Positions 27,401 through 59,000 of a DNA stretch of 64,000 nt are shown here, in pieces. Location of the stretch: positions 3,053,001-3,117,000 of the forward strand of contig CM069446.1 in the NCBI GenBank assembly GCA_035610835.1. The letters run 5' to 3'. How positions within the stretch are numbered: the first letter of the stretch is position 1; each line of letters starts with the position of its first letter. The notes beneath the pieces are model-generated. The model ran no database searches and was not told where the DNA came from. It saw only the letters and a list, made by a program, of their open reading frames with translations. Source of the DNA: Ophiura sarsii (taxonomy: Eukaryota > Echinodermata > Ophiuroidea > Amphilepidida > Ophiuridae). A program made the translations under genes and the position numbers.

Positions 27401-30400
27401 GGAATGCCTTGCCCACAACCGCGGCTGGAATATCCTCCTTCCGCCGAGAAAAAGCCACCCCAACGGCACGCAGTCGACCCCCGACCGTAACCGAACTGCC
27501 ATGTGCCCTGACTGCAAACAGACATTTTCCCTGTTCTCCGAGGGTGCTCGAGGCTGGAACACTAGACCCCATCGCCAGTGCATCAAATGCTACAGGGCGC
27601 AGCGGAGTAGCCGCCGCAGCGACGCATCTCAGCGCCAAGCGTCCTCTCCATCTGAAACTGGGGTGATATTCGCACAAGTGTCGGCATTGCACGAAACGGG
27701 ATCAAACCACCAACAGCCACCCATGCGCACTAATAACCGCCACCGTCACCATCGACGACGCCCCCGCTTCAAGCAAACGCAGTCGGAACCACGTTCTACC
27801 CAAGTTCACGCCCACAATATCTTCTCAAAGGGTGCATGGCGCAGGGCCCGCTTTTTGAACCATCCGGAAGTGCAGCTACACATGTCAGTGAACAACTCGG
27901 ACTATCGAGCTTTCGGACGACGCTGTCCTACCACCGCACCTACAACCATCACAGCGATGGCTGACACTGGAGCCCAATCTTGCCTCTGGTCCATGGACGG
28001 TTTTTTGGCTGCTGGATTCTCTGAGGAAGACCTCGTTCCTGTCCACGTAGACCTAGTCGCAGCCAACAAGTCTCCTATCACCATAGACGGCGCTATCATC
28101 GTGCGTCTACAAGGAGTGCCCCTGAGCGACGACAAGAAATCGTGCGCCACCATGGTATATGTAAGCAAGTCAGCCCATGGATTTTACCTGTCTTGGGAAG
28201 CCATGATGGATCTTGGAATAGTATCGCACGACTTCCCCTCAGTTGGAGCAGCTGAACTTCAGCCCCCAAAGGCTCAACGTCCACTTAAGGAGGATCACCC
28301 TGCAATCAACGCCGGTTGCTCCGCACCATCTTCAAATGGCACAGGCCCATGTTCTTGTCCACCACGTACAGTGGTTCCCGATCGGCCCGATACCCTTCCT
28401 TTCGAGTGCACCCCCGCCAACAATAGTAAGATGGAAGATTGGTTGCTACAACACTTCGCAGCATCGTCATTTAATACCTGTCCTCACCGCCCCCTCCTAT
28501 GCATGACAGGTTCTCCAGTGGAGATTCACCTCAAGGAAGGTGCACCCCCTAAGGCGCAATAAACCTGCCACAGTACCAATACATTGGCAAGAGCAGGTGC
28601 ACAACGACCTATTACGAGATGAGGCACTAGGAGTCATTGAAAAAGTCCCATATGGCGAACCAGTACTCTGGTGCCACCGCATGGTCGTTACACGGAAGCA
28701 CGATGGAACTCCACGCCGCACCGTGGACCTCTCCCCACTCAACAAAAACTGCCAGCGAGAAACATTCGCCAGCGAGTCACCGTTCCACCTAGCGAGACGC
28801 GTCCCCAAAGGAACTTGGAAGACAGTCAGTGACGCATGGAACGGGTATCACAGCGTCCCCCTTCGGGAATGTGATCGCCATCTGACCACCTTTATCACAC
28901 CTTTCGGCCGATGGAGGTACACCAGAGCGCCCCAAGGCTTCCTCTCATCCGGTGACGGATACAACCGCCGTTTTGACGCTATCCTCTCTGATTTCGACCG
29001 CAAGGAGCGTTGCGTCGATGACACCATCCACTACGACACTTACCTTGAAGCACATTGGTGGAGGACCATTGACTTCCTAATTCGTGTTGGCCAGTCGGGA
29101 ATAGTTCTCAATCCAGACAAATTCCGTTTCGCACGCAGAGAGGTTGATTTTGCAGGCTTTCGGATCTCTGATGAAGCCATCGAGCCACTGCCGAAATACC
29201 TCGACGCTATACGCGGATTTCCGACGCCAGCATCCACCACAGACATCCGTAGCTGGTTCGGCATAGTTAACCAGGTCGCCAACTATGCACAACTACGCGA
29301 CACCATGGCGCCCTTCAAACCATTCCTCAGCCCAAAGGTCCGCTTCGAATGGACTCCTGCGCTTGATGAAGCCTTCAATACATCTAAGGGTGCCATCGTT
29401 GACGCCATCCGCCACGGCGTAGAGATATTTGACCCTACGAAGAGAACCTGCCTACGCCCAGATTGGTCCTGCAAGGGCATCGGATACTTTCTATCACAGA
29501 AGCACTGTGCCTGCGAGTCCCGCATCCCTGACTGCTGCGATAATGGATGGAGGGTAACATTAGCTGGCTCCAGATTCCTCTCATCCGCAGAGCAGCGCTA
29601 TGCTGCAATCGAGGGCGAGGCACTGGCAGTGGCATGGGGACTCGAACAGTCGAAATACTTTACTCAGGGATGCAATGACCTTCTCGTTGTCACTGATCAC
29701 AAGCCCCTGATCAAGATCATGGGAGACCGTACTCTCGATGAGATCCCCAACTCCAGACTCTTCCGCCTCAAGCAGCGTACACTACCAAGGGCCTTTGAGA
29801 TCGCACATCTCCCCGGCAAGACTAATACTGCCGCTGACGCCACGTCCCGACACCCCGTAAGCAACTTTGCAGAGCTATCTAGCCTCACACTACACTCAGC
29901 ACAAGATGATGCCGAATGCGCCATGACTGCTGCCATCCGTCACGAGACGCAGAACATAACAGCATTGACATGGGAACGCATTGCCTCTGAGACCGCAACC
30001 GATCCTGTCACACGCCAGCTTATGGATGCCATCTACACCGGCTTCGGGGATGCACACCGTACCGCGAATGACGGGCTGGCCGCATTCTGGCAATACCGAG
30101 AGTCGCTCCATGTATTGGATGGTGTCATCTTGTTTAGTGACCGTGTCGTTATCCCATCATCCCTTCGTAGCGAAGTTCCCCAGACACTCCACTCCGCCCA
30201 CCAAGGCGTCACGTCCATGGAATCACGTGCTCGCGCTATCGTGTTTTGGCCGGGAATGACAAAGGACATTCAGTCAGCCCGCGAAAGATGCACAGCATGC
30301 AACCGGAACGCCCCGTCACAAGCTGCATTGCCCCCTACACTATCGCCAGTCCCCGCAACACCATTTGAATCGATCTACGCTGACTTCTTTGACTTCGGTA

Positions 30401-33400
30401 GATGCCACTACCTAGTCGCCGGCGATCGTCTATCTGGATGGGTCGAAATCTTTAGAGCACCGCATGGTACTACTCAGGCTGGAGCGCAGCGCCTGATCGC
30501 TGCTCTCCGAAAATTATTTGCCACGTTTGGCGTTCCTGAGGATATCTCGAGTGATGGAGGCCCAGAATTTTCTGCTTCTGCGACTGCCGACTTCCTTACA
30601 CGATGGGGAGTCCGTCACCGTGTGTCATCTGCCTACTTCGCTCAATCGAATGGCCGCGCCGAAGTAGCAGTCAAGAAGGCGAAGCGCACCCTGATGGACA
30701 ATGTTGGGTCCACTGGTTCCCTTGATAATGACGGTCTCTTACGGGCACTACTCCAATTGCGCAACACTCCTGACTGCAACATCTCACCGGCGGAAATAGT
30801 CTTCGGCAGACCTATACGCGATGCCTTCTCATTCGTCAGCCGACAGAATAAGTTCACCAACCCATTCATTCGCACTACCTGACGCGAAGCATGGGCACTT
30901 AAAGAAGACGCAATAAAAGCCCGGATGCCATGCTCACTTGAAGCCCTCAACGCTCACGCAAGGCCCCTTGCACCACTATCGCTGGGCAACCGCGTGTTCC
31001 TGCAGAACCAACACGGTCCGCATCCTACAGTGGGACAAATCCGGCACAGTCGTCGAGCTAAGGGACCATGACCAATATTGGGTCAAAGTTGATGGATCTG
31101 GACGCTTATCGCTAAGAAACAGGCGCTTCTTACGCAAGTTTACTCCACCCACGGTCGCAATCGAGGATTCCACACATCGCTCGCGACGACACATGGTCGA
31201 CCATGGCATGAGCGTACCACAACGACACGCAATGGCACCGCAACCACAGCCAGCGTCAGACCAGCTGGAACAGGGCGCCACCGCTGTCGCACGACCGCAC
31301 ACGTCTACTTCTACGACAGAGGCTACCGTGCCAACGATGGGTGCCCCAGCAGAGCCCGTGCTGGACCATACAGCAGCATCAGCACCACTGATCCCGCTGA
31401 CGCCCTCAAAAACAAATCTGCCACCACCGGACATACCAACAGCACCTATTACACCAGTCGCGTCAGGTGGAGTTGCCCTCGCAGACAAACAATAAAGCCT
31501 CGTCACTACGTGCCTGAGACTGGTAAATGGCAGATCCGCTAATCTGCTAGTTGTTACGTTAGCGCGGTATTAACCCCTCTAACGTGTGGGGGGGGGGGGG
31601 GGGGGGGGGGGTGTTGAACTATGGCGGGGTCTATTGGAGCATCTACACACGTATTGCTTCATTGTATATAGTTGTTATGTATTAAGAACATTATTTGTTG
31701 TTTGTATACTTTCAGACTGTTGTCATCTTTAACATCAATCTGATAAAGAGAAGCATTCTTCAAAAACCGTACAGAATTGACCGAGATATGAGCAAAACGA
31801 GTAAAATCCAGGGCTTTTTCAGACTGTTTCTAGGGGCCATGTTTGTTTATTTTTCGGTGCGTACTGCAACCATGCAGTCGAGCGCGTAACACATAACGCG
31901 GCGTAGTGCGCCATGTAAAATAAACGCTCACACGCACTACACCCGCCCCCACGCACCCCTACACACGCGGGCGGACAAATATTGGAGAAATACGCTGCGC
32001 TACTGGAGTTGATTAATTTAGGCCTTGAAGGTGTATAAGCATGATAAGCAAGGAGCAGGCGGGCGGTAACGGCGGGGACGGTGGGCGGGGGACGGCAGGG
32101 AAGGGCGGGCGGGGCAAGGGGAGGCCATGAAGTAATGAGGTTTAGAAGGCAGGGAGTTACTGAAACACGCTACGGGAGTTGGTTAATTTAGGTCTTGAAG
32201 GTTTAGATAACCACGGGGCGGGCGGACGAGGGGAGGCCATGAAGTAATGTGGTTTGGGAGGCAGGGGGTTAATGAAGAAATGTGATGCTAATTTGGAGTT
32301 GAAATATGCCACGGGGCGTTGGCGGGCGGGGGGGGGGGGGTCTTTTTAATTTTTTAATTGAAATTTGAAAACTTTTGAATTAAAACAAAACCTTTTGATT
32401 TAAAACAAAAATGTTTCAAATAAATGTTTTATTCCTATGTGTTTCTTTATAAATTTTCCAACACTTATGTGTTGTTTCATTTTGTAGGTGTTCTATCTGG
32501 TAGGCCCTACTCCCTAGCGGGAGAGCCCATCCGAAGGACGGGCGTCCCGCTAGTCATACTATAACTTGCCGTATGTTGTATGTGTCGTGTATATATCCAT
32601 AAAAGGCTCTCTCATTTTACATTTAAACGACGTGAACGTTTTACTGATAAAAGATTATTATAATGTGAGTGTTATAAGCTATAAATGGCTGAAAACCGTA
32701 CAGAATTGACCGAGATATGAGCAAAAGAGGGAAATCCAGGGCCTTTTCAGCCCGGCTTTTGAGACTATTTCTACGGGCTATGTTTGTTTTTCTATGCGTA
32801 TACACTGTAACCATGCAGCGGCGCGCGTAACAAATAACGCGGCGCAGTGCGCCATGCAAAATAAACGCGCACACGCACTACACCCACGCACCCCTACACA
32901 CGCGGGCGGGCAAATATTGGAGAAATACGCTGCGCCACGGGAGTTGGTTACGGTTTAGACTTTGGGGTTGAGATAAGCCACGGGGCGGGCGAAGGCGGGT
33001 CGGGGACGGGGAGGGGGGGGGGGCTGGGGCGGTGGGCGGGGCGAGGGAGGTTTAATGAAGAAATGTGCTTTGGGTTTGTGTAATGATGTAATGTGGTTTG
33101 GGCCCTCTGGGAGGCAGGAGGGTAATGAAGAAATGTGATGCTAAATTGCGTAACGGATATGCCACGGGGCGGGGGCAGGGCGGAGGATTGACGGGTGGGG
33201 TACGGGAGATGGTTAATGTTTAGGCCTTGGAGTTGAAATATGCCACGGAGCGTGGGCGGTCGGGGGGTATTTTTTAATTTGTATTTGAAATTTGAAAACT
33301 TTTGAATTAAAACAAAACCTTTTGATTTAAACAACAAAAATGTTTTAAATATTGTTCTATTCCTATGTGTTTCGTTATACATTTTCCAACACTTATGTGT

Positions 33401-36400: not shown

Positions 36401-39400
36401 GGTTTGGGAGGCAGGGGGTTACTGAAGAACGCTACGGGAGTTGGTTAATTTAGACCAGTGACGGAGCTTTAGGCCTTGGGGTTGTGATATGCCACAGGGC
36501 GGGCGGGGCGGACGGGGCGGGGGCGGTGACGAATGGGGATTGTGTGTAGTGATACAATGTGGTTTGGGAGGCAGGGGGTTAATGAAGAAATGTGATGCTA
36601 AATTTCGTAACGGTTATGCCAAGGGGCGGGGCGGGCGGGGGCAGGGCGGGGGGGGGGGGGTGACGGATGGGGTGCGGGAGATGGTTAAGGTTTAGGCCTT
36701 GGAGTTGAAATATGCCACGGGCGTGGCCGGGCGGGGGGGGGGGGGTCTTTTTAATTTTATACTTGAAATTTGAAAACTTTTGAATTAAAACAAAACCTTT
36801 TGATTTAAAACAAAAATGTTTTAGATATTGTTCTATTCGTTATGTGTTTCCTTATACATTTTTCAACACTTATGGGTTGTTTCATTTTGTAGGTGTTCTA
36901 TCTGGTAGGCCCTACTCCCTAGCGGGAGAGCCCGTCCGAAGGACGGGCGTCCCGCTAGTACATACAACATACGGCAAATTATAGTAAGACTATAGTGAGA
37001 ATAGTAAGACTTTATTGTGGACGCACTTGAACCAATGATTATGACTATTATTTTGCAAGTATAGTTTGTATCAACTGTGATGAGTTCGGAAAGTGGCTGG
37101 TAGTATTCAAATTTGGTATGGTAACATTGGTCAAGGAAAGCATCGAATGGCGTGGAAATTTCAACAATAAAAGCCTTTTTGTTTCGGTCGTCAAGTATGA
37201 GAATGTCAGGGTTACGATGTTCAATGCTTGTGTACACATCATTATTATTACTATGGTCCATAGTACCAGTGATAAGTTTGTTGACGTGGGTATATACATC
37301 TGTACGGATTTTCTTGAGTTATTGATTGATATGGTTGACTATTCTATCGTGTCTTTTTATATACATGCCATGAAAACGCATGCATCCATTGAGAATGTGT
37401 GAAGCTGTGTCAAATTGATTATTACACAGATTGCATGATTTAGTGTATGAGTTTGGGTAATAGCGATGTAATAATGAATTACATTCAAGTAATTGTAAAT
37501 GGGTTTTAAGGATGAATTTGACGAGATTGTCTTGAATGACCATGTTAGATAAGTAGTTGTTTGACATTTGGAAATCTATATCTGTGGTGTTTAGTATTGG
37601 TCACAGGTCACTAATAGGTATATCAAATAAGGTGGGGCCGTTTCAAAAAATCCTTAAAATCGTGATACGTGTCTCTATTTTAAATAGAAGTTGTCAAAAA
37701 AACATAACATTTTTGGTATCATATTAAAGGCAATTTATCCAGCTACCGAATAAAAAAAGGATTAAAGCCACATGTTTAGCAACAGTGAAGTTATCAATCT
37801 AAACGTCGAGTGAGTCAAGGGTGGAGCCGGTGGGTGAGGCGCCGGTGGGTGAGGCGCCCATAGGTTTCTACACAAAATAGCGGAAAACTAGAACTTTTGA
37901 AATTGATGCCATTTTAAAAGTATACATAGGAAAGTATTCAAACTTCTCATATGTGTTAATAACATGTGCCTGCTACTATGAATATTAATATTGAATTGTT
38001 ATCTAGACATTCTCTTACTAGAATATGATGTTCAATTCAGGGAGTGTTTTAATGTAAAAAATACACAGTTTTATTCATTTTATTGATTAAACAATGGCCA
38101 AATCGCAGTCTCTCTATTTCATTTGTGTGACTCTTCGGTCCTTTTCTACCCTGGGTAGTAAAACATTTAACTAAAATAGCCAGAAGTGTTTCTTCACAGA
38201 ATTGTTCATAGATTTATGAAAAATTTGCTATTTAGACATATTTTGGACCACCCTGTATTCAAAATAAAAGGAACTTTAATGATATTCATGTAGTTCATTT
38301 TGATAACCATTTTCCTTTAAATTAAATAGTCCATGCTAACTAAATTTCATAGAATATTATATACAAACCTTCATTTTATGCATTATTTCATCATAATTTT
38401 AGACACCCTGTACTTTTCCTGTGTACATTTTGGGCAGGTGATTCTTAGCAAATTTGGTAGCACCTTCTGCGGTTGTTCTGATTTTGGTGACTATCTTCAG
38501 CTAAACCCTAATTGTACAAACTATCAAAATATTTTGTGAGGAGCAAAAACGATCAACTTTTTTATGTTCCACCCTGTAAAAATGTTACACACCCTGTATA
38601 ATTTGATTATTTTTTGCAAAAATGAAAAACCTTGAATCATAAGCTTTCCAACAATATATAGTTTGTGGGTCATTAAGTATGTGAAACTTAAGTTTTGTCC
38701 AGTTTAATCAGAATTGGTGCATTTCTCAACATTATTAGAAGTGAAACATTTTTTTGGACCAGTTTGTGACTTCTGACCTATTCTACCTTGCGAAAGCTTT
38801 GATTTGAATCTTGCAACGCGTTTATTATAATGATTTGTTTTGATGTGATTGGACACGGCAGAGTGGGTTCTAAGGACGATGGAGACTTCATCATCGATTG
38901 TATTCGTAATCACGTAATCGTCTCCGTTTATCTCTAAACTAATAATAATGGCATTTATAATGCGCCTTCAATCTAGGTAAAACTATTCCGAGGCGCAAAC
39001 ATATAAAACAAAAATACAAATTAACATGAAAAATACATAAACAAGGATGATTTGCATATACATGTACATGTATATACAAAGAAATCAATTATAAACTGAG
39101 TCAAATCAGTTAAACTAATTAAGTTAAGTTAAACTCAAGCATTCGCGCATACATAGTTCATTTAATTCAATCCACATTGATGTTGGCCAGTTAACCTTGC
39201 TTCCCTTTGTTACTCTGCCATGTTCGTCAACCTTATAACCAGCGAAAGTACGAGCATGATCATTTGTTTTAGTTGCTTTTCGTTTTGCCATGTGTAGTTC
39301 TAATGATGAGCGTGCGCTGTATCTAGTTTGTGTGTCATCGGAGTTAAGGACACTTAATAGAAATGAAATCTTTTTGGCTATATAGATAGTTGTAGGGTTT

Positions 39401-42400
39401 GAAATGCCAAGCCCATCTGATTTTCTTGGCATGAACATAAAATCTCTATTGCTGGATTTATTGAGCCCAAACAATGTCCTGATATGATGAACAATACGGT
39501 CCTCAAACCCAGACAACTGGACAAGAGGTATTGAGAGGTTATACAGATAAAAATTTAGTTTGGACATCACCATAACGTTAATGGCTTCAAGTTTGGCGTC
39601 TATAGGTAAAACAGAGTTTGATATTTGCGACATTGTTTTCGAAAGATCGTCAAAAACCTTTTCTTGGATTTTTAGCTTGATTTTATTTGTGTCATCCCTT
39701 TTGTTCCAGTTATTACCGGTTCTCCGGCCATGCAAAATTGCACACTTACGATGTTTAATCCTCATACCAGATATATTTAAGAATGCTTCTGTTTTGATAC
39801 CCATTTCAAGCATTGAGGCTTCATCCATGGTTGCCAGCACGATATCGTCAACGTATCCTTGGACCTTGTTTGGTGTAATACATATACAACATACGGCAAA
39901 TATAGTAAGATTACTGATTACGCCCTCCACAACCAAGGGCGTCACGAAACTGACCACTTCCGGTCAGTTTTCCGGCAAAACAACAACAGCCGATCAGTAG
40001 CTTTGAGAAAGCTGGTCGTTGACCAGCGAAACTGTCAGCTTGGAAAAAAACACGTAAGTTTTTTAATATATCTGATATTGGTCTTGCCAAAAACCCTTAC
40101 TACTTCATGATTATCAACAGACCTGATAATCTATTTACAGCTTTTCCACAGATTTATACACATAAAGCAATGTTGTCTTATTATACAAAGTCCTTTAATC
40201 ATCTGGCAACCAGCGCAATTTAGTAAACAATGGTGAAAACATATGCAAAACACAAAAACAAGACCCTATATACTGATACATACCCTGATTGGTTCCCCAT
40301 GATAATTAAACACAGTCGCAACTAAAGCCACCTGCTCCATACGCATAACAGAGTACGGCAAAGTCACATCGATAAAGTGCTCGCGTCTCACTGTAATCTC
40401 CATGGGTTCGGCGACGCACATACCATGAAGCGGTGACACACCCGTCGCCTGGATAATCCATGTTGTGATACTATCTGGGAGGGAGATTGGGTAGATAGTG
40501 GATGTTGCGTCACTGCGGGAAGAACAAGAAGAAATCAAATTCAATTGTTGACCTTTGACATTATATTCTATATCACAAATGAGTCAGATATCGGTTCCTT
40601 GGTCTTATTCCATTTCACGTCATATCATCATTAATTAATTAACTTTGACACTAACACTTGAATTCAGATTGATATGTGTGAAATGTTATAAAAGTCATTT
40701 GCTGTGTCTTGTTTTAATTTCCCTTACAGGTTGATTGATGTCAACTACTTGTAATGTTTTATAGTGACGTATTGGAATTGTTCAGCTTGATAGACTTAAA
40801 GAGATTGCTGAGAAAAATGAAATTTGGAAAAGTAGGAATTGTTTCAATAGATAAGGTACATAGGAACCCTGAAGTGTAATAATTTATGAGAAAACGGTTA
40901 GATAATGGCGCTAGATTGAAATTTGGTTGAAGCAAGTTTGGTGGTGAGTGATGCTGATTTTGTCGATGTGATCTACATTGAAATTACCCAATTGTGAAAT
41001 TGTACATGATACGCGGCGAATTAAAAGGGCACAGAGAGATTTATCAAAAATGAAATTCAACATTGTTACCTTGTCTAGATAGATGATTTACATGGAAACT
41101 CTCTCATGTAAGATTTTTTTCCAAAAAAATCAGTACAAATGAAAAATGAAGACATTTTCTCAGCATTTCCGAAGATAAACTAGTGTTTTCACTTGTTTTG
41201 TATTTTGTTTAAAAATCACTACCAATTGAATCAGGGAGGTCATGACTATGCATCACGCAACAAGCCATGGGTGGTCTTCAAGGTTATTTTGAATAAACAT
41301 GAAACAAATAAGAAAGAAGCCATCTGTGGCCTTTTAGATGAATTTGGGTAGTTTCGATGTGATCTCATCGAAATTCAGAACGCTATAAAATCCATGAATT
41401 TTACATGAAATACTGCAAATTAAGCTCTATAATTTTAGGCGGTAATTAGTATGTATATAACCATAACGTATATGTGAAAAATCCAACTTCTGAAAACATT
41501 GAGGGCTCCCTTCATGAATGATCTCTTAGTGCCCCTTTAAGGTAAACGGTTTCAGATGTTAGTTAATATGCCTAAGTATACGTAGGTGCAAACAACCTGA
41601 TTTCAAGACAAATTGAGGGCGCACTCCCATACGTATCTCTCAATGCCCCTTTAATACAATCTTTTCTTTACGATCTTTTCTTTTCTCATCTGTTCATCTT
41701 ATTTTCATGGTTTTGACCGTTTGAAGCAATAAGCCTTCCGAATGTTGACATTTTACGGAGACGAACTGTGTGAGATTACCATTGAAATGCGGTAAAAATC
41801 GTATTAAATATCAATATACTTCTATAGCAGAGCGGCGGCTCCCATAAGCGTGACACCCTATCATGCTCACAACGTAAAGGTAACCAAAATAAGTTGATTG
41901 GATCTGATAATTATTATCAGGAAACTTGTTGTAGTGTCATGCTTTAAAAGAAAACGTCACTAAGCTTTTATAGCTGTACTCAAAATCCCTTTTTATTTTG
42001 CATATAGCGTATAATGAATTTTGTATAGGCCAATGTTAACATGTTGCAATACTAGTATACAACATTAAAAGGCCACAATCTGGCTAAAAGAATTACCGTG
42101 TATAATACAGGCTGTCCCAAAATGATTAGTACCCATCGATGTCCAAAGTTCAATAATTGTTGTCATCATCAAAATCGATGGGATTAGGTCTGGTTTTTGT
42201 ACTTCATCTTTGTCATACTGTACCCTGGATCCCCGGCCCAACTTATCCATAGGTGCAGGTACAGGCAAATCCATTGCCGTCCGTAACCGTAAGCTCAACA
42301 CATTGCATTGTCGCTCTGTTATGGCATAAGGTAAATAACGATCAACACACTGTAGCTGAGATACCGCATCGAACGCTGAATGCATTGTCGCGCTGCCATA

Positions 42401-45400
42401 GCTACGGCACGATGGGGAGCGCGATATGGAGCGCGATATGACATGCGTGCATGTGCGTGTGAAGTCCGGTGCTGTGGTTAGCGCAGATACATGTGTAGTT
42501 TGTGCCAATCAGCAAATTTGTTATCATTCTAAGCGTGACGCTGGCTTGATCAAATTTATTTGTGGATCTATTTTGTGTCAATCATGAATATGCATGACTT
42601 TTATGCCAGCAAATCAGCTTTGAGTTGAAATCGGCGCGTACCTGCATCTATGGATAAGTTGTGTGGAGCCCATTGATGCAGGGAACCAGCATATCTACCG
42701 CCTTGCAGACTGGACCTTACCAATGCTTACCATGCCAACATCCATTCATTGGTCACATTGACACTGACCTACAAAGTTAACTAAAACGTATTAATGATAT
42801 ATTCCGAATATACATCATTGTTTACGTGACTGCTATCTCCCGTAGACAGAAGTTCAACTTTACTTGACTATGTATCCATTTAAGGGGGACCCAAGGAAGT
42901 TTTTGATGGGATTTGTTGAATTTATCGAGTGCTGTGTTTTTTGAACTATTAATCAAATGCATATAAAAATATACATTTTTGGAAAGGATTTGGGTCAGAG
43001 AATCCATTTTTGACATCAATTTTGACAATTTTTTTTGAGAATTTCACAACCACAAAAATCTTTTTTTTCCTCTCGAACATTTGAGTAAAAAATGCCCAAA
43101 ATTGCTTGATTATACTATTAACACACTAACTTAGTGCCAATTTTATCATATTTTTACCTATAAACTTGTATTATTTGAAATTTTGACAAAATAGTGCCAA
43201 AAATGTGATTTTGTTTACATTTTTTTCACTCTTTAGGCCATCGTCACTAGATTAGTGTCAATAGTATAATCCAGTAATTTTGGGCAATTTTTACTCAAAA
43301 ATAATTTTGTTAGCTTGTCCCAAAAGAATTGGTAAAAAAAGTGATTTTATTTGTGACAGTGATGAGGGTGGGATATGAGAAACGAATTACTTTCTAAATG
43401 GCCATACAAAAGAAAGCTGACCTTATTTTACACTTTAAATTATAGCGTTAGTGAAAAAGATACAATTATACACAAATTGTATCCTGATGAGTTTCAAACT
43501 CAAAACTTTATGTATTAACACCTCCTGGTGTTAACATACATTTCATTAACATACTATACATACGACAAGTTAGCAGCATGTAGACTGATATTGGGTTCAA
43601 TCATGTTTTTATTAGGATTAATTATTAAGATACTTTTTTCGAACTATGGTTTTGGGATCCGTAGCTTTCGGGATCATTGCGAATGAAGGGGTCGCGATGA
43701 TCTCGAAAGCTACGGAGCCCAAAACCATGATTCCAAAAGGTATCTAAATTAATCCTACATGTATACGACAATTTGTGTATATAAATGATATATAAGCAAT
43801 TTCTAGGAACAATGTAAATTTTTCAGATTATATTTCTCTTAACTTACATAATATTCTGACTCTCTGAATAAAGCATGAGTAACCCAGAGGCTCAGAGCCC
43901 AAATTATTTGTTTTGATTTTGGTAACTGGTCAAATAATCCCTCATGAAGTCATCTGGCAGTATCATTTGTCTTTCAAATTAAATTGTAGAGTAGGACCTG
44001 GTAATTTTTCTAGGCCATGATAATCATGAGTATGTTTTTATATGTTTATATGTTTTATATATATTTATATTGTATTTCAAACTGTATAAATCATTCTGCG
44101 AAACACTGTATATCCACACTTACCCCAAGTCCACAAGGTTTTGTTCAAAAAGAAACGACCCCCTGAAGTCCGACCGTACAACCACATCTTTATAATTCAC
44201 TTTCAGAAACTGATCTCCCTGGCTTCCTGAAGAGCGTCCTGTGGCCCGTGATTCCGCCACACAACACTTGTATAATGCCTGGACAATTGGGTCGTTGATT
44301 GGGAGTCCCATGCGAGATATAATACCTAGTTTTCTGTCTTCACAACTCCATCCATCTATGAAACGCTGTCCTTTCTGGCAGTAGTATAATAAGGTAGCGT
44401 CGCTTTGATATCTACTCACTGACGATATTCGGACAGCAAATTAGGAATAAGAATATTCATGAATATTCATTATGTAATAGTTAGGATGTAGAATCAATAA
44501 AAGTGTTTTGAACAGTGCGGGTGATAAGACAACTAAGTAATTGTGCCTCAACCGGGACCACATCCATGTGATACTCATGTGATACCCATGGGATACACAT
44601 GAGATGTGATACTCATGTGACACGCATGTTTTGAATGGTGCGGGTGATAAGAACAATTATATACAGCAGATTCCTGTCATTTGATTGGTTAAAAGTAGGG
44701 TATAATCAAGCTATGCCTTCAATTTCAATATGACGTCATCAAAAACAACTATGCCCGGGCATAGTATTTGTTGATGACGTACACCCCACCACGTTTGACG
44801 AGTCAAGCGATCCGCGACCCGGTTTGAATCATCCGAACCGAGAGTCCCCGATTGATGGGACGTACAAATAATACGGCGAACGCTTTCGTTTTTAACACCC
44901 TGTATATTGTTACCCCGTGATTGACAGCTGACCTTTGACTTTTGGCATTTATTTATTTATCTTAAACATTTTGGTCTTACGTTAGTTTCTGTCCTCGTAG
45001 TATGAACTAACTCATAGAAATGGCTGAAAAATATGCATCGGTTTGTCCTCCCTTGACCTTGTTTGTTTACGAAGAAAGGCATCAAAGTTGTCATTGATTC
45101 ATCTTACAGCCTAATTACAATGTTTCAGCTAGCAGTTTCAAGTTTTGCGGTAATATTAAAATTAGCTTGACAATATGATATCTGAAGCAAAAGTTCATTC
45201 AGAAAAGTTTCAAAATATTGAGGAAAATAGACTGAGGCCAACTTAGATCATTTGGTAGATGCTTTCATTTTATAGCTCTCTGACAGAGAGCTATGATTCA
45301 ATGTTACCCTATGCCTAACTATTTAATTAGCAGTGTTCTTTCAACCAATCAAATGATAACAATCTACACTGCAAAGAGGTTGCTTAAATATTTACTCAAC

Positions 45401-48400
45401 ATTTTACACAACGTTGTTGAAGTATGCAACAGCTCAACAGTTGCGTAAAATTTACCCAACACCGTTGGATAACATGTTTTCACCAACAGTTGAACAATTC
45501 CAGTTACTCAGCAGTTGCACAATTTTAATTACAAAACAGTTGGGTATTTAATATTAATTAACCATTTGTTGGGCATTTTGTGACTGTTGCTCAATTTGTG
45601 AATTGTTTTCATTATATATTGAGCATTTTTGTATAGCAACTGTTGCTTAATTTATCAAATGTAGCCATATGTTGGGTATTTTATTTGTGACAAGTTTTTA
45701 TTATTTTGAGCATTTTTGTATAGCAACACGGGTAGGCAAATAATGTGAATTCTGGGCGATGCATCAGAGCTACATACATCACTTCCTCCCGGTAGTGAAC
45801 CGGTAACTTGCAATGGAAATTCTAGGCGATGCAGCAGAGCTACATACAGCACTATTCCCTTTCGGTAGTGAATCTGTAATTTATTTTAACATGTTATTTA
45901 ACTAGACCTATACATATAATATCTGACATCTCTTATCATTGGTGTTTTTACTGTGAACGTTTGCCAAACGTATTCTTGCTATCTGGGTATGAAGGTATAA
46001 ATAATCCATATTATATAATACATAAAAATATATATGTGATTCTTTTGGTGGAAAATAGATCACATGACATGAACTATTCAGTATATGTCCATGCCGTGTA
46101 TTTTTTGGCTATAAAAATCGACTCAATATTCATCGCTAGTGACGTCGCTATAACACCGCTGAAATGATATTCATAAACAAATATATGTCAATCAAGGATG
46201 GCAATTTTAAACTATTTTGTCAGTGCTAGCGATTTATTCCGTTTTGGATGCAAAGACAGAATAAATCTAATTGTGGTCCTGCGCTGCAAAAAGGTTGCTT
46301 AAATATTTACTCAACATTTTACACAACGTTGTTCAAGTATGCAACCGCTCAACTGTTAAGTAAAATTTGCCCAACACCGTTAGATAACATGTTTTTCACC
46401 AACAGTTGAACAATTCTAGTTACTCAAAAGTTAGGCAATTATATTCACTCAACAGTTCAAGTATGCAACAGCTCACGAAATTGGCTTTTTTGGACAACAG
46501 TTGCCTAAAATTCACATGTGCGTAACTTGCATCAACTGTTGCGTGATTGTTCTCAATGCTCATGCAACAGTTGCCAAAGTGGAATATTTTTACGCAACAT
46601 ATTTTAGCAACAGAAACAGTTTCCACCAACATTTTAAGGACATTGTTTTCGACGAATTGCTCAACGCTGGTGATTTTTTACTTTTATACAACGCCTAACT
46701 TTCTATAATATATTGAATGAATTTTAACACGTCAACCAACGGATAATAAAAGTACTTTTAGCAACGTATTTTAAGCAACCTTTTTGCAGTGTATATAATA
46801 TTTGGTATATAAATCAAATATTGACTGCTTTCATTCGGGTCACCGTTCAAATGATAATCCCGCGGTGAGTTCAAAACCAGACTATGCCAATCGGCTAACA
46901 TCTCAGGACATAGTATGGTATTCGAGATCACCTTGGGCCTATAATTTGAACCATGCCCCTCATTGCAGTCAATATTGGTATACTATGTAATAGTGCCTCC
47001 CCAGGACCGCAACAATGTAATACTCATGTGATACACATGTGACACCCATGTGATACCATGTGATACATGTGATACCCACGTTTTGAACAGTACAGGTGAT
47101 AAGAACAACTATTTAAGTCATAGTGCTGTTTCTCTTGGGGTAACAAAATATACGGACATTCACAAATATTCCCAGATATTTTCACCAAATTCTGCCTCCA
47201 ATTACACCAACTATTTAAAATAACAGCGATTGATATTCATCGTGTATTTTATGGTTTTGAAGTATTAAACAAAATCAAGAAAAATATCATTATATTATAC
47301 ATTAATTTTTGGTCACACCGAAAAGTGTGGAGAGCCATCGTCGATCGGGGACACCTCCGGAGTTAAGAAGTAAGTATACAGGACTGATTCAGAATTTGAT
47401 TCCAACTTACACAGTTCTTGAATAGTTTCTGTTGTTTCCTCCACATTCCGTCTCTTTCTATCATGATTATCGCACCTAAGATCTGTTAATATAACATAAA
47501 CACCATGATTATTTAATATGAATATTCAACACAAACAAGTATTGACATCATATCATGAATATTAAACAATCACCACTAACAAATATTGACATCATAGCAT
47601 GAATATTCAACAATCACCACTAACAAATATGAACATAATCATGAATATTCAACACAAACAAGAATGGAGATCATATCACGAATATTCAACGATAAATCCT
47701 GACAAGTATGAACATCATATCATGTATATTCAACAATCACCACAAACAAGTATGAACATCCTATCATGAATATTTAACACAAACAAGTATGCACATCATA
47801 TCATGAATATTTTAACACAAATAAGACTTGTATGAACATCATGTCATGAATATTCAATAATAAACACAAACAAATTTGAACATCATATCATGAATATTTA
47901 ACACAAACAAATACAAACATCATGTCATGAATATTTAACAATCACAACAAACAAGTATGAACATCCTATCATGAATATTTAACAATAAACCCTGACAGTT
48001 ATGAAAATCATATCATCATAAATATTCAACAATAAACCCTAACAAGAATGGACATCATATCATGAATATTCAGCAAAACAAGTATGAACATCATATCATG
48101 AATATTCAACAATCACCACAAACAAGTATGAACATCATATCATGAATATTAAGCAATAAACCCTGACAATCATGAACATCATATCATAAATAAATATTCA
48201 ACAATAAACCCTAACAAGAATGGACATCATATCATGAATATTCACCACAAACAAGTATGAACATCATATCATTAATATTCAACAATCACCACAAACAAGC
48301 ATGAACATTATATCATGAATATTCAACATACATACATACAACAAGGATTTGTGATGCGCTATTCCCCGGAGGCTCAAAGCACTTACAAAAAATATATACC

Positions 48401-50191
48401 TAAAGTAGCGAACTGCCAAATAAAAAGTGTTTTATTTGTTAACCTAATAACATAAGAACACGATTAAATGGGGAACAAATATGTCTTGAGGGCCGGCCTT
48501 CTTGAAGGCAATATCAGAAAAAGATTGCAAACGACGAGTGTATGATTTTGGTAGAGATGATAAGAGTCAATTGCGATTGTCAAGGCGGGAGAGAATGAGA
48601 GAGCGCACACGTACAGGGTGATGGCAGGTGTCCTTATTAATGAATCTGTGAATGCGTGAGATGTTCCTTAAGTTAAAGGTGACAGTCCAAATAACATTAG
48701 TGATGTGAGTGGCCATAGTCATATTTGAATCGAAGAATGCGCCGGGATGACATTAGTGCTAGAGTTTCCAATCATGAAATTTATTTCTGGTAGACGCTTA
48801 TGACAATAATGAGAAGCATCGATGAAGAATTCAGTTTTAAAGTCTTTAGGTTTCAGTATATTTACATTCATCCAGTTTTTGATGTCAATTATACAGTTTT
48901 GTAGTTTAGAAATGGCATTTGTAAACTCATCAGGTAATGTTCGGTCAAAGGATACATACAGTTGGATGTCACAGCATACACATGATGATTAACCTGATGG
49001 TGATGAGCAATATCTCCAACTAGCTGGAAGAGTATAAATACTATAACCGACAGGGCAACCACAGAGCCCTGAGGTAGAAAATAATAATTAGGAGGTTCAT
49101 CAATAAACCATGACAATTATGAACATCATATCATGAATATTCAACAATAAACACTAACAAGTATGAACATCATATCATGAATATTCACAAAAAATAAACC
49201 CTTACAAGTATGAACATCATATCATAAATATTCAACACAAATGTATAAACATCATATCATAAATATTCAAAACAAACCAGTATGAACATCATATCAGGAA
49301 TATTCAACAATCAGCCCCTACAAGTATGAACATCCTATCATGAATATTCAACACAAACAAGTATGAACATCCTATCATGAATATTCAACACAAACAAGAA
49401 TGGACATCATATCATGAATATTCAACACAAACAAGTATGAACATCATACCATGAATATCAACAATCACCATAAGCAAGTTTGAACATCATATCAGGAATA
49501 TTCAACAATCAGCACTTACAAGTATGAACATCATATCATGAATATTCAACACAAACAAGTATGGACATCATAAATCATGAATATTCAACAATCAGCACTT
49601 ACAGGTCTGAACATACTATCATAAATATTTAACACAGACAAGTATGAACCTCATATCATGAATATTCAACACAAACCAGTATGAACATCCTATCATGAAT
49701 ATTCAACACAAACCAGTATGAACATCCTATCATGAATATTCAAAAAGCTGATTCAACAGATTGGGGCTATACCCCATAGTTCTAATAAATAAGGAACGCG
49801 GGGACCAAATCTATCTTACTGATCCTGGTCATTAAGGTTTGCAGGGGACACCATTTTATTCCAAGCCCAGTCATAATGTCAGCCATAATTGGTGGTTCTA
49901 TTTTAGTCTATGTTACTGATACTGATCACTTAGATTTGCAGGGGTCACCATTTTATTCCAAGCCCAGACATAATGTCGGCCATATTTGGTGGCTCTATAA
50001 ATGCACAGCCAGACAATGTCAGTAAGTTTTCCCGACTAAAATTAAAAAATATATTGACATGTCTACATGAACGGAAAAACACCTGTTCTAAATGACATGT
50101 TTAATCAATGCGGTTGAAAGACCATATTATGTGCCTGATCTGCAATTACAATGAAAAATCATTAACTTTTGTTTTCCTTTCCTCTTTCTTC

Positions 50192-50223
<32 letters not shown>

Positions 50224-53200
50224 GGGGGGTTGGGTGGTGTTTAAAACAAAACTGTAAACATTACCTTCACGTTCATTAGTCTGTAGTTCAGCATTGGTGA
50301 GAACAGTCACACCCGCATTCTGTTTAAAAATACACAAACATTTAAACATAACAGTTAGATCCAAAACGTGGAGCCTATTTCCTGTTTGGTGTTGCGACAA
50401 CTTAAGATCAGAGCGTATGTGTTTTATCAGTGCTTATCTCTTTAGCCATTGTGATCACTGTATTTTAATATTCGAGTTATCTGTGAATTATTAAGTTAAT
50501 TGTGCTTTAGTACAATGTTGATCATTTAAAAATAATAACATACTATTGATATTTTGATGAACGGTAACTATATTTAAACCCGATAATAATTAATATTTCC
50601 CTTGTGGTGGTCTCATTCCTCAACCTGGATTTGAACACTGGACCTCCTGAATTCCAGACAGACACTCTACAAACTGAGCTAACGAGGACAATTGGTATCG
50701 AAACATTCGATATACATCTAAAGGCTTAGGGTTCAACTTCCCATATTTCTCCCGCCTCTCATAGCGACAGGCATAATGGAGAAATTATATAATTCTATCA
50801 AATTAAATTTGAAATCAAAGCTACTTAACTTATAGTACCTGAGGTGGAAGTGATCATTGAAATCAAGCTTTGTGCTGAACATGGTCAATGATTTTATGAG
50901 TTTTAAAATAGGTAAATTTTGGTCAATCTTGGAATTTACCATTTTTACAAACAAAGTCTAAATTTTCTGTCAGAAATGTTCAACTTATAAAATGCAAAAT
51001 TCCTTACGAAGCTAAATAAATGCACCTTTCATGGTAAAATCATACTGTTACACCCTGTTATCTGACATAAATGCTATCATTGGTCACAGGTCACTAATAG
51101 GTATATCAAATAAGGTGGGGCCGTTTCAAAAAATCCTTAAAATCGTGATACGTGTCTCTATTTTAAATAGAAGTTGTCAACAAAAACATAACATTTTTGG
51201 CATCATATTAAAGACAATTTATCCAGCTACCGAATAAAAAAAGGATTAAAGCCACATGTTTAGCAACAGTGAAGTTATCAATCTAAACGTCGAGTGAGTT
51301 AAGGGTGGGGCCGGTGGATGTGGCGCCCATAGGTTTCTACACAAAATAGCGGAAAACTAGAACTTTTGAAATTGTGCCATTTTAAAAGTATACATAGGAA
51401 AGTTTTAATAACATGTGCCTATTACTATGAATAATAATATTGAATTGTTATCTACACATTCTCTACTAGAATATGATGTTCAATTCAGGGAGTGTTCTAA
51501 TGTAAAAAATACACAGTTTTATTCATTTTATTGATTATATAACTAGCATTGTTAATAAAATTATTGTTAATTGTTAATAAATCGCTAATGACAGGTACTT
51601 TCCCTCAAAGTCAGAAAATTGCATATGTTCGTCCTCTCATCAAGAAGCCTAGTTTGGATAAGGACATCTTAAAAAACTACAGACCGATTTCAAACTTAAA
51701 ATTTCTCGGAAAGATGATTGAGAGGATTGTGTCAAAAAGAATATCTGATCATATTAATACCAATTCCTTATCGGATCCATATCAATCTGCATATAAACAA
51801 TATCATGGAACAGAAACCGCTCTTCTCCGAGTTAATAATGACATTCTCACTGCTCTGAACAATGGACAAATTACAGGCTTAATTCTCCTGGATCTAAGTG
51901 CTGCATTTGACACAGTTGACCATAACGTTTTCATCTCTCGTCTTCATGATTATCTTGGCATTCAGGATCTTGCTTTGGATTGGTGCAAATCCTACCTTTC
52001 CAATAGACCCCAATATGTTCGCATTGGTACTGCTACTTCTCATCCCACTGTGCTTGATTATTCTGTTCCACAAGGATCTGTGCTTGGACCTCAATGGTTC
52101 ACTGTTTACACTTACCCTGTCCGTGACATCATTCTTCGCCACAAATTAACCTATCATGTTTACGCTGATGACACACAGCTTTATTTGTCATTTGATTCAT
52201 CTCAACAAAATGCAGACTCTGCCATAGCTACCCATGAACTATGCATCGATGAAATTCGTAAATGGATGAAATCAAACTTCTTAAAGCTAAACGACGAAAA
52301 AACTGAATTTCTACTGTTTGGATCCCCCCACCAATTGTCTAAGATAAACACTGAACACGTACATATTGGCGACTCCAAAATTGCCTCAGTCGCCAAAGCT
52401 CGGAATCTGGGTGCAATTTTCGACTCTTCCATGACTATGAAACCACACATCTCCAATGTCATTCGTTGCTCAGCATTTCAACTACGTAATATCAGCAGAA
52501 TCCGCAAATATCTTAGTCGTGATGCTACAGAACAATTAATTCATTCGTTTATAACCTCTCGTCTTGATAACAACAATGCTCTTCTTTATGGATTACCAGC
52601 TAATGAACTCTATCGTCTTCAGAAAATTCAAAACACTGCAGCTCGCATTCTCTAAAAGACTTACCATATTACGCCAATTTTAAAGGGACTCCATTGGCTC
52701 CCTGTAGCTCAGAGAATTGTTTTCAAAATATTGCTTATTGTATATAAATGTATCAACAATGTTGCCCCATCATATTTATCTGAATTGTTATCAAACTATG
52801 TGCCAACTCGCACTCTTCGTTCTGGACAAATGCAACTTCTTCAAGAAACTATATCTAAGCGCTCTTGGGGAGACAGATCTTTTGCTATAATTGCAGCTCC
52901 TCGTCTCTGGAATGAACTTCCTAACCATATTAAAACTGCAAAAACTGTTACAATCTTCAAAAAACTGTTGAAAACACATCTGATGTCTGAGACATTTTGT
53001 AATAATTAAGTAGTTTTATTGTTGTTTATCGTTTTCTATTATATTGTATTTTATGGTTGTGCCTTGAGCGCTCTTATTTAGAGTGGATATTTGCCTTGTC
53101 ACTATTATTATTATCATTATTATTATTATTAAACAATGGCAAAATCGCAGTCTCTCTATTTCATTTGTGTGACTCTTCGGTCCTTTTCTACCCTGGATAG

Positions 53201-55979
53201 TAAAACATTTAACTAAAAAAGCCAGAAGTGTTTCTTCACAGAATTGTACATAGATTTATGAAAAATTTGCTATTTAGCCCTATTTTGGACCACCCTGTAT
53301 TCAAAATAAAAGGAACTTTAACGATATTCATGTAGTTCATTTTGATAACCATTTTCTTTTAAATTAAATAGTCCATGCTAACTAAATTTCATAGAATATT
53401 ATATACAAATCTTCATTTTATGCATTATTTCATCATAACTTTAGACACCCTTTAATTTTCCTGTGTACATTTTGGGCAAGTGATTCTTAGCAAATTTGGT
53501 AGCACCTTCTGCGGTTGTTCTGATTTGGTGACTATCTTCATCTAAACCCTAATTGTACAAACTATCAAAATATTTTGTGAGGAGCAAAAACGATGAACTT
53601 TTTTATGTTCCACCCTGTAAAAATTTTACACACCCTGTATAATTTGATTCTTTTTTGCAAAAATGAAAAACCTTGAATCATAAGCTTTCCAACAATATAT
53701 AGTTTGTGGGTCATTGGACAATTACCGTGTTCAAAAACTGCTTAAAAACTCACTTGTTTGACTGATGTTATTTGTGTTTGTTTTTTCATGTTCATGTAAT
53801 TATGTATAGTTCTGGCTGTAATTTATGTATTATTGTATATGTTTTTTCTTGATTATAAAGCGCTGTGATCTTTGTAGGGCGCTATACAAATGTTTTATAT
53901 TATTATTATTATTATGTAAAACTTAAGTTTTGTCCCGTTTAATCAGATTTGGTGCATTTCTCAACATTATTAGTGAAACATTTTTTGGACCAGTTTGTGA
54001 CTTCTGACCCATTCTGTTATACTCTGTATTATCTGACATAAATGCATTATTTTCAGTGGATTATAACGATAATAATACTGAGCGCATTATGTCATACCCG
54101 TGTGCATGTTACATTGGTCGCCAATGTTTGTATTTGATGGTTTAAACTTTCTTACTAGTTTAAGAGTTTTGGGTAATGTTGCAAAAACTTACATCAAATA
54201 TGTCCTGTGTGTTGCTGCCTCCCCCAGGGCCGCATTCATGTGATACCCATGTAACACCCATGTGATACCCATATAACCCCCATGTGATACCCTTTTACTT
54301 ACATCAAATATGTCCTGTGTGTTGCTGCCTCCCCCAGGGCCACATCCATGTGATACCCATGTAACACCCATGTGATACCCATATAACCCCCATGTGATAT
54401 ACTTACATCAAATATGTCCTGTGTGTTGCTGCCTCCCCCAGGGCCACATCCATGTGATACCCATGTAACACCCATGTGATACCCATATAACCCCCATGTG
54501 ATATACTTACATCAAATATGTCCTGTGTGTTGCTGCCTCCACCAGGGCCACATCCATGTGATACCCATGTAACACCCATGTGATACCCATATAACCCCCA
54601 TGTGATATACTTACATCAAATATGTCCTGTGTGTTGCTGCCTCCCCCAGGGCCACACCCATGTGATACCCATGTAACACCCATGTGATACCCATATAACA
54701 CCCATGTGATATACTTACATCAAATATGTCCTGTGTGTTGCTGCCTCCCCCAGGGCCACATCCATGTGATACCCATGTAACACCCATGTGATACCCATAT
54801 AACCCCCATGTGATATACTTACATCAAATATGTCCTGTGTGTTGCTGCCTCCACCAGGGCCACATCCATGTGATACCCATGTAACACCCATGTGATACCC
54901 ATATAACCCCCATGTGATATACTTACATCAAATATGTCCTGTGTGTTGCTGCCTCCCCCAGGGCCACACCCATGTGATACCCATGTAACACCCATGTGAT
55001 ACCCATATAATACCCATGTGATATACTTACATCAAATATGTCCTGTGTGTTGCTGCCTCCCCCGGGACCACATCCATGTGATACCCATATAACACCCATG
55101 TGATACCCATATAACCCCCATGTGATATACTTACATCAAATATGTCCTGTGTGTTGCTGCCTCCCCCGGGACCACATCCAAGATCATAGGATGACATCTT
55201 GGAAAATATCTTTGGAAAAAAAAAGTTTTATAAAATAAAATAAAATGTTTTTTATTAACAATTTCATTATGTATTTTGAAATCATATCATTAATATTATA
55301 AGATGTTTACCAAAAGTGTATTTCCCTAGATGAGTGAGTAATAAGCCTGATGAGATTCTAGGACAATAGGTTATAGTTTTGTAGCAACAAGTCACTACTA
55401 ATAAGGTCGGTATACCACTTTACTACCAAGGGCACAAATCCTAATTCTTTGAATAAGTTCATCAGGATTGTAGATTGAAATGATAAAAATGTTTTGTTGT
55501 ACAAATCCAATATCTACTCACATGACTAGACAGTTTCGTCTTCCCGATCAACAAATCCTAATTGTTACAGTTTTTAAGTAAATCCTCTATTGTGGTATTG
55601 TGAGGAAGTAGCTTGACACCAGTCACTACGTCTTTAATTTATTGATCAAAGATACAGGGATTACCAAGAAAATGTGTATAGGACAATGGCTACATAGTTT
55701 TTAAATGTGGGTGTGATGCAGTAGCGTAGCCAGATGGGGGCAGGGGGGGGGGGCAGAGTGCCCCCACCCCCAACTGAAAAATAAATTGACCGGGAAATCG
55801 GGAAGGCAGCGGAAAATCGGGAAGGCGAAGGAAGGGAAAGAAAGGGAGAAGAGGAGACAAAAAGGGAAGGAAAGGGAAAAGGGAAAGGAAACGGACAGAA
55901 AGGAGAAAGGAAGACAGGCAAATTAGTTTGAAATTACAGTTTTTCACGCTGGTATGGGGACACAATGCCTCTAACAACT

Positions 55980-56010
<31 letters not shown>

Positions 56011-59000
56011 CTATCCCGCTTGTAATTTTCTTATTCGACAGCAAATCAAAAAGTTGACATGAAACACCTGGCTACGCCACCGGGTCGAACTGGTGTTCAC
56101 CGGGAAAAAATACCCTTTGCCCCCCTCCCTGAAAAGTGACCCTGGCTACGCAACTGGTGTGATGGGGTTAATAACATTATGTCCTTGTGATGTATTGGGA
56201 TTTGTCAATTATTAATTACTTCATGAATAATCGCGAAAACTGCGTACCAAGTGCGTTCCAATAAAATTAATCGTAAGATGAGAACGTGGACGCCGAGCAC
56301 AAGTTACTAATAATTGCCCGAAAGTACTGGGCCATAGTGTTAGATTGTTTTGCTCATTGACCGACCAATCAAATTAACGCCTCACGCCCCTAAACTGAAT
56401 ATTCAATGAGTTATAAGGAAACACAATTAAAGCTTATTTCTGATTGGTTGAATGATAAAAATGTTAATAAGGGGATGACCCGACTTGGACTGTTTCAATA
56501 ACTAAGAAGGGGTGGACAAAATAAACAGAAAACTAATTAATTATTAGCAAGATTATATCCGTACAAATCAACAATTTGGATAAATATGCATCTTTTTCAT
56601 TAATGAATGAGAATAATGACTGCTTAACAACTGTTTTTGTGAATTTGTTTTGAAATCCTCGGTTGTTGTTCTGGTCATTCAGAATTGTCCCTCGGGGGCT
56701 GCGCCCCTTCAGGACAATTCTTCAGACCAGAACAAAAACCTCTGATTTTAAAACAAATTCACAAAAACAGTTGTTACGCAGTAATTATTCTCTAAACAAG
56801 AGTTTAAGTGACTTGGATGTGGATATGAAAGTTGTGGGAAGAGGAAGTAAAATCGAGTTAAAGGTGTATGTATGTTCCGATCACCTTTTTTTTTGGCTAT
56901 GATTTTTTTTCCGCATCAAGGTGGTTAACGACCCGCAAGCTTGTGTTCTACTCAATGGGCACATTAATTTCTTGTGACCTTGTGCTTCTAAAATAAGAAC
57001 CATTGGAGTTATGCAACTCAAATAAAAAAATTATATACGAGGGTCATTCAATAAGTTCTACCTCCTATCGCATAAATTTGTGCTATTATATAAGCCAGTC
57101 TTATGAAATATTTCACAATTGTAGCTTGGAACCTCAACTATAAATTAATTATAAATTGATCTGAGTAATGGGATTACTTTTGTGGAGATGCGGTGAAATC
57201 CAAACTTTCATTTAGTGTAACGGAAACGGATGAAAAACAACAAAATGTTGCCGAAGTGCTATTCATTTGGGCTATTTTAAGATACAAAAGTACCAATCGG
57301 TCAATTATAACCGTTTTAATCGTAAGATATCTCTTTAACAGACTATAAACAATAAAGGTGACTGATTTCTTGGGAAACATATGCCCTGAGATAAGCCAGA
57401 ACTTAATCATGAAAAAAACATTAAAGGAAATCCTTGCCATGAAACTTTAGCGATAAGATATGTAGCATTATTATTATAAAGACCACATCCGTAGGTTAAA
57501 GTTTTTATAAGTGTTGTGTTAAAACAAAATAGGCTCTATAAAGAAACAAAATCACATGTATGGACGTCGCCATTATTGATCGAAGCTATGACGAAACAGT
57601 TACGAGATTTCCACATCTCTGTTTCTTGTATTGATATTTTCGATTTATGCATTGTATTCCTGCGTGATTATGTGCACCTTCTTTTTATTTAGTCTATGGT
57701 TATCCTGTAAGAGATATACTGCAGTGTCTATTCAGCGAGCAGGTTGTGAATAAATGGAGATGCACCCCGGACTGTAAGATCTAACACTAACCTTCTTTTT
57801 ATTTAGTCTATGGTAATCCTGTAAGAGATATACTGCAGAGTCCACACCCAGCAGTGCGACCTTCGTATGTGGTTTTCCCATCACCTTCAGGTTGACCGTT
57901 TTCTTGGGTTTATACCATGTCCTCCCGTCATCAGGAGCTGGTATCGATATCTGCAATGGTCAATGATATTAAAGTGTAATAGAGTAGAAATATTATAAAA
58001 CAATAAATCAACACTCACATTTATTAGCCAACATTATCCGAGTAACCATATTCTGTCGTCAGTGAGTGGAAGATTGCTTGCAACTGATGGTTGACTCAGT
58101 TCCACTTCTGTTGCTAGGAGAGGGTACTGTTGATGTTTTCAGCAAAGGAGCCATACATTTCGAAACTCACAACCCTCATCCCTGTTTAGAGTGGAGCTAG
58201 TTTCCATGTACATTGTAGATGGCCTTCCTGATCTTTCTGGGAGGAATAGTTTGTCCTCCCTGCAGAGAACTTTAACATTCTCCACGTTGGGGGATGACCT
58301 GTTATGTAGAATGTTCCGCTACTAGGGCACATTGGTTAGATTAAATTTTGGCAGTGTGAAATATAAGGCGCTCATTGGGGCAGGTTTTACAAAGTACATG
58401 GTAAATAATAAGATACAAGGAGAGGCGGTACTTGTAGGTTCTTGAGGGGGAGGGGGGTGTACTAAAATCTTTAATCCTCCTTTTAAATTTGATTTTTGAG
58501 AAGGTGGCATCAGAATCTCTCCTTGTCCTAGGCACCATGACACACCCTATATACCACACTGATATACCCTCACCTCAACAGGGTTCTCACACTGGTCTAC
58601 CACATCAATCCACGCCATATCAGCAACAACTTTGTTTGCGCTGTTCACATAAAATGCCACCATGCGAGCACTGGGTACCATGTCTTGCGTTATCTGAATG
58701 TCGGTCACAGTAGTGGCAATGATGTCGTCTACGGCTTTAGGCTGGATAATCTTTCCGCCGGCTACAATCTGGAGTCAAGAAAGTATTTCAAATTACTTAA
58801 TGTTGTTTTGCCATTGATATTTTTCTGACTGTCACAATAAATTATCCTAGACTTCAAACTACTTAAAGCAATTTGAACTTTTTCAAATTTTTACAGATAT
58901 CTTTTTCTCTCTTCTAATAAAGTTTGAATATCAGGAAAGACTTTCCTGGACTCTTAAATCTGTCCTGACTGTATTTTCCGTAAAACAAAGTCACAGAGCT

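Follow-up and report, generated by a model that had tools for sequence, protein, structure and literature searches.

A poison exon is a case of alternative splicing coupled to decay. Human IFI6 (6-16, G1P3) carries a repeat whose 12-nt unit keeps the reading frame. Turri, Cuin and Porter reportedly found in 1995 that a minisatellite in this gene provides multiple splice donors. According to PMC4526556, two downstream repeat units of IFI6 act as splice donors, and three mRNAs result. PMC2891723 and PMC4974935 treat the gain of introns through tandem duplication of a coding stretch that holds a proto-splice site. We analyzed a 64,000-nt stretch of Ophiura sarsii DNA (the window; C6:3053001-3117000) in which a C3-like gene carries ten tandem copies of an exon tail with its 5' splice site.

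Human IFI6 appears to be the nearest precedent for this array: repeat units act as splice donors in both (here by prediction), and both genes belong to innate immunity. The two differ in that the unit here is 104-110 nt, includes an exon tail and breaks the frame, while the IFI6 unit has 12 nt and keeps it; in that the C3-like array recurs at several paralogues and several exons; and in that donor use is known from RNA in IFI6 and predicted from sequence here. Intron gain shares with it the tandem duplication of a stretch bearing splice signals, but the units of the repeated exon, EX, hold no acceptor-like site by a pyrimidine criterion (no AG with at least nine pyrimidines in the preceding 14 bases across the 1017-nt stretch) and bound no new intron. 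As with a poison exon, use of an extra donor is predicted to give a premature stop. Among the best-ranked literature titles and abstracts we found none on this donor array, which is no proof of absence.

The host gene has the following predicted features in the window:
58574..58768, minus strand: exon BRD1 (A2M_BRD), donor GTGAGG, a single tail in the window
57792..57950, minus strand: preceding exon BRD2, 159 nt, donor GTTAGT
55209..55135, minus strand: exon EX, 75 nt, phase 0, IFSKMSSYDLGCGPGGGSNTQDIFD, which in alignment falls at the end of the C3/CVF beta chain
54187..55180, minus strand: tandem array of exon tail, GTAAGT and minisatellite spacer, 10 donors
55129..55134, minus strand: donor 1, GTAAGT, the sole productive donor by reading frame
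54187..54192, minus strand: donor 10, beyond which the intron (CAACATTACC) aligns, with a gap, to sister loci L011 and L012
50266..50320, minus strand: next exon (NEXT), NAGVTVLTNAELQTNER..., joined in frame by donor 1, end coordinate set by eye
44123..44440, minus strand: open frame with a CQKGQRFI...CC pattern, by eye a possible anaphylatoxin-like exon
40269..40583, minus strand: open frame with an A2M domain (PF00207), on the alpha-chain side

Pfam searches matched PF07703 at 58774-58550 (1.3e-12) and 57959-57735 (1.3e-5) and PF00207 at 40583-40269 (2.5e-23), and A2M_BRD followed by A2M is the domain order expected of a complement C3-like / A2M family gene. MG4 gave a weak match under its cut-off. 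The 44123-44440 frame had no Pfam match, its cysteine pattern being recognized only by eye. When four exons were joined into a 160-aa query (65+53+25+17 aa), the best scores were to cobra venom factor (CVF, 4e-23), C5 (3e-22) and C3 (4e-21 at best), with weaker scores to C4 (1e-14) and A2M (1e-4); a protein search with the same query gave one match among 60 candidates, to a 95-aa ENA fragment that spans just exon BRD1. These domains and matches agree with the C3-like label given in an earlier note on this DNA, and the minus-strand gene is predicted to be C3-like, nearer C3, C4 and C5 than A2M.

TRF reported 54187-55180 as a repeat of period 104 with 9.5 copies, 97% matches and 0% indels. GATGTAAGT occurs ten times in the window, every time within 54187-55137 on the minus strand, against a mean of 0.54 and a maximum of 3 in 100 shuffles, and the donor GTAAGT is present in 10/10 units. 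The last exon bases of copies 1-5 lie at 55135, 55031, 54927, 54823 and 54719, and those of copies 6-10 at 54615, 54511, 54407, 54303 and 54193, giving a donor-to-donor spacing of 104 nt in eight cases and 110 nt in the last pair. The last 30 nt of the tail plus GTAAGT are identical in all ten copies (8/10 read GTAAGTAT), and each donor is separated from the next tail by an 11/22-bp repeat (GGGTATCACATGGGTGTTACAT) spanning ~54 nt. Both ends of EX are phase 0, and copy 1 is the only one preceded by a pyrimidine-rich acceptor, TTTTTTTTTCCAAAG. Since the acceptor stands only at copy 1 and donor 10 leads into intron alignable to L011 and L012, the array lies inside one former exon/intron border.

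The earlier note had proposed ten donors in a row, a single acceptor and about 104 nt added per copy, all of which we recovered; its uniform 104-bp spacing fails only for the last pair. It was also right that the repeat includes the exon tail, but not that this amounts to the last two thirds, as ~45 nt of the 75-nt EX (about 60%) is repeated in nine extra copies, each with GTAAGT. The location it gave stands except at the 55197 end: the exon begins 12 nt farther, at 55209.

We translated every possible isoform, ten for the window and eleven for L009, a sister locus described below. Donor 1 alone opens into the next exon (1/10 and 1/11, respectively), and the protein joined through it aligns to CVF with no gap at the junction (2 alignments, both CVF). 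The donor 2 isoform reaches a stop four codons on, the junction codon included, and donors 3-10 share one stop, a TAA within the GTAAGT of donor 2, whatever their length modulo 3. Later donors thus lead to a premature stop in 9/9 cases in the window and 10/10 in L009. These translations reject a frame switch yielding several proteins: with donors 2-10 all leading to stops, a switch reduces to productive versus unproductive splicing. The frame switch offered by the earlier note is not supported in the form proposed, while its other two options, a donor decoy and neutrality, both survive. That donor 1 alone is in frame, with a gapless CVF junction, supports a reading with one working donor, and we think it likely that the array is a splice-donor minisatellite whose other donors would be tolerated decoys.

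A choice between productive and unproductive splicing could itself be regulatory, with the donors competing, donors 2-10 leading to a stop and decay, and copy number setting the amount of C3-like protein. This would fit the finding that every later donor gives a stop, the ten near-identical copies of tail and donor, in which local sequence hardly singles out donor 1, the position of the next exon in L009, which starts 216 nt past the last GTAAGT, and the variation of copy number among loci. We nevertheless consider it unlikely, given that extra donors are decayed or missing in L010, L012 and BRD2 and that selection on the donors themselves was not detectable (see below).

RNA structure hiding the donors was also considered and rejected, as a 305-nt fold had a z of +1.48 and 97/100 shuffles were at least as stable; a fold no better than shuffles supports reading the extra donors as tolerated decoys. 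G runs can aid splicing, and the 47 such runs (GGG or longer) in the 1017-nt stretch from the start of EX to donor 10 count against that reading. With ten GTAAGT sites and 47 G runs, this stretch of about 1 kb could instead be a protective array, in which U1 sites and G runs at the start of the intron would reinforce donor 1 or suppress premature polyadenylation while not themselves serving as splice sites; the reduced variation of the donor and adjacent tail (p = 0.025) is in its favor. We hold this to be very unlikely: the array is absent from the sister locus L012, donor 2 is lost in L010, and the intron remaining after the last copy is short (216 nt in L009, 132 nt in L010).

For copies 2-10 of the window locus and 2-11 of L009, variation was counted as cells that differ from the majority of their column, leaving out columns gapped in any row of a locus. 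Off-majority cells made up 0/114 in the donor versus 11/912 in the spacer (p = 0.62), and selection on decoy donors was accordingly not detected in these extra copies; intact decoy donors need no selection and are by themselves no evidence of use. Taken together, the donor and the final 33 nt of the tail varied less (3/741 cells) than the spacer plus the front of the tail (19/1235; p = 0.025), which counts against neutrality, while the same comparison with the spacer alone gave p = 0.10.

A search of the whole genome (1.574 Gb, 748 contigs) with an exon-plus-donor query returned 26 matches at five loci, with 6/6 candidates scored:
W, the window locus, C6: 10 copies
L009, C9, 76.59 Mb: 11 copies
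L011, C7, 37.45 Mb: 2 copies
L010, C6, 3.23 Mb: 2 copies
L012, C7, 35.56 Mb: 1 copy

Donor 1 is GTAAGT in 5/5 loci. L012 has a plain exon with GTAAGTAAAAGGTCTATC; in L011 a long minisatellite spacer separates the two copies and the intron after the second is nearly as in L012; and the second donor of L010 reads GTCACT. This altered donor of L010, the single copy of L012, whose nearest relative L011 has two, and the decayed donors of BRD2 indicate that extra donors can be lost. First copies read GGTCCC (GGTCCT in L010) and later copies in all four arrays GGCCCT, the exception being copy 2 of the window, which reads GGTCCC. A single origin of the second copy is the simplest account of this pattern, with the extra copies apparently descending from one duplication. 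In a tree built from the flanking exons and rooted by midpoint only, W grouped with L010 (94/90) and L011 with L012 (97/96), and under this root loss is the simplest explanation for L012 having one copy.

The copy numbers of 11, 2, 2 and 1 at the sister loci bear both on whether the array is dispensable and on whether its copy count is an assembly artefact. Window units 3-4-5 and 6-7-8 are nearly alike, and the exact count could be off. An artefact is nonetheless extremely improbable, because several units carry private differences, unit lengths vary (104, 110, 132 and 148 occur in L009) and an array exists separately on C9.

Comparison of W with L009 suggests exchange between chromosomes. Their flanking exons differ at 19/50.2 silent sites (dS 0.53), whereas EX differs at 0/16, although about 16 silent sites are few; the spacer consensus differs at 1/53 bases, against about 20 predicted from the flanking rate, in a repetitive sequence whose sites are not independent. 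EX dS is also below flanking dS for W-L011 (0.07/0.23) and W-L012 (0.14/0.31). In the pairs with L010, by contrast, EX and flanking dS are equal (0.14/0.13 with W, 0.22/0.23 with L011, 0.31/0.32 with L012), as they are for L011-L012 (0.07/0.06). EX evolving at the flanking rate in these pairs rejects a general constraint on its silent sites as sole cause and makes such constraint not the simplest cause of the W-L009 identity, though the lower exon values of W-L011 and W-L012 point the other way. Across the five loci, we infer that gene conversion of exon and array into L009 would be the simplest cause.

The same comparisons bear on whether the gene is non-functional and the array debris. A GCGEQ-type thioester motif was not found by pattern in six frames of the window, and retroelement-like frames lie within the gene region, both of which would suit a dead gene. 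However, the frames of BRD2, EX and NEXT are uninterrupted at each of the five loci, dN in the flanking exons is well under dS (0.09 against 0.53 for W-L009), and the gene seems to continue past the window, so that the missing motif says little; we find a non-functional gene highly improbable. Below 38 kb, 10 of the 87 minus-strand frames of at least 60 aa were scanned with Pfam, none matching at 0.001.

Tail-plus-donor repeats also occur at neighboring exons:
57672..57728, minus strand: BRD2 exon tail, copy 2, at a spacing of 114, donor position reading GTGCAC
window 57950-57672, L010:2356-2860 and L012:2362-2659: BRD2 tandem tails 110-114 nt apart, 2, 4 and 2 copies, respectively
C7:35560828-35561510 (L069/L012): BRD1 and two further tail copies, 240/242-nt spacing

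The four BRD2 tails of L010 are followed by GTTAGT, GTTAGT, TTTAGT and GAATAA, the two of L012 both by GTTAGT, and one tail each was seen in L009 and L011. Donors of the extra BRD2 tails are thus decayed in 1/1 case in the window and 2/3 in L010, and intact in 1/1 in L012. BRD1 in L012 comprises a full copy and two tails with donors GTAAGA, GTAAGC and GTAAGC, as against one tail each in L010, L011 and the window. In both the BRD1 and BRD2 repeats the full-length exon is outermost. BRD2 tails carry an acceptor-like TATCTCTTACAG ahead of 27 nt and the donor position; they look closer to the intron-gain kind of duplication, and an in-frame 27-nt mini-exon (nine codons) arising from them is conceivable.

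Tail-plus-donor repeats at two neighboring exons are not predicted by simple neutrality. Roughly a dozen tandem-repeat sites occur in these loci, three of them across a donor in an uncontrolled count by eye, which only suggests that exon ends with donors may be preferred for tandem copying. A stronger version would have the tails and donors of three consecutive exons as a preferred copy substrate, with arrays exchanging between chromosomes and homogenizing the exon, and donor number tuning functional C3-like mRNA per locus by way of unproductive splicing; we regard this as a long shot.

The spacer repeat extends beyond the gene. A genome search with the array as query gave at least 118 matches with 40/179 candidates scored, showing the 11/22-bp repeat scattered through the genome, and in 10/10 further loci examined (L013-L022) the match covered the spacer but not the exon. 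Two copies lie in later introns of the C3-like gene:
46940..47130, minus strand: minisatellite with a head, GGTCCTGGGGAGGCA, like the exon tail
44540..44640, minus strand: second intronic copy, with head GATGTGGTCCCGGTTGAGGCA

The tail-like head is ~20 nt in both. Among 88 matches listed (40/724 candidates scored), those spanning tail-like head and minisatellite are these two and C6:3236369-3236659, which lies near the sister locus L010.

Other elements surround the array. Large AT-rich 37/44-bp satellite arrays occupy 47526-48328 and 49102-49743 in introns after it, with relatives in L009 and L010. The plus strand at 26674-31495, in the C3-like gene region, has frames like an LTR-retroelement polyprotein by eye, and a reverse-transcriptase-like frame, also by eye, lies at 51543-52655 (plus strand) in the intron after the array; 39127-39963 (minus strand) gave an RVT_1 match (7.5e-5, 23 bits) under the cut-off of 29.6. 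Two tRNA-like matches just over the Rfam gathering score, at 50616-50688 (minus strand, 32.7 bits; within the intron after the array) and 11168-11222 (minus strand, 30.4 bits), are possibly tRNA-derived repeats.

Under our preferred reading of one working donor and tolerated decoys, the exon tail with its donor and roughly twelve intron bases would have been duplicated once, with a piece of the GGGTATCACAT-type minisatellite as spacer between the copies. The unit would then have multiplied, shrunk and been homogenized through unequal exchange and gene conversion. Because it lies nearest the only acceptor, donor 1 would make the protein; the other nine would be redundant decoys that the gene tolerates, and their use would give short, probably decayed transcripts.

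Compared with IFI6, the differences are a large, frame-breaking unit that bears exon sequence, a copy-number series over five loci and recurrence at neighboring exons. In this one family, exon ends have been copied together with their donors at several exons, and one exon and its array are near-identical across two chromosomes while neighboring exons have diverged. A series of 1, 2, 10 and 11 near-identical 5' splice sites within one family and one genome is a natural experiment, one that tests position rather than sequence in donor choice.
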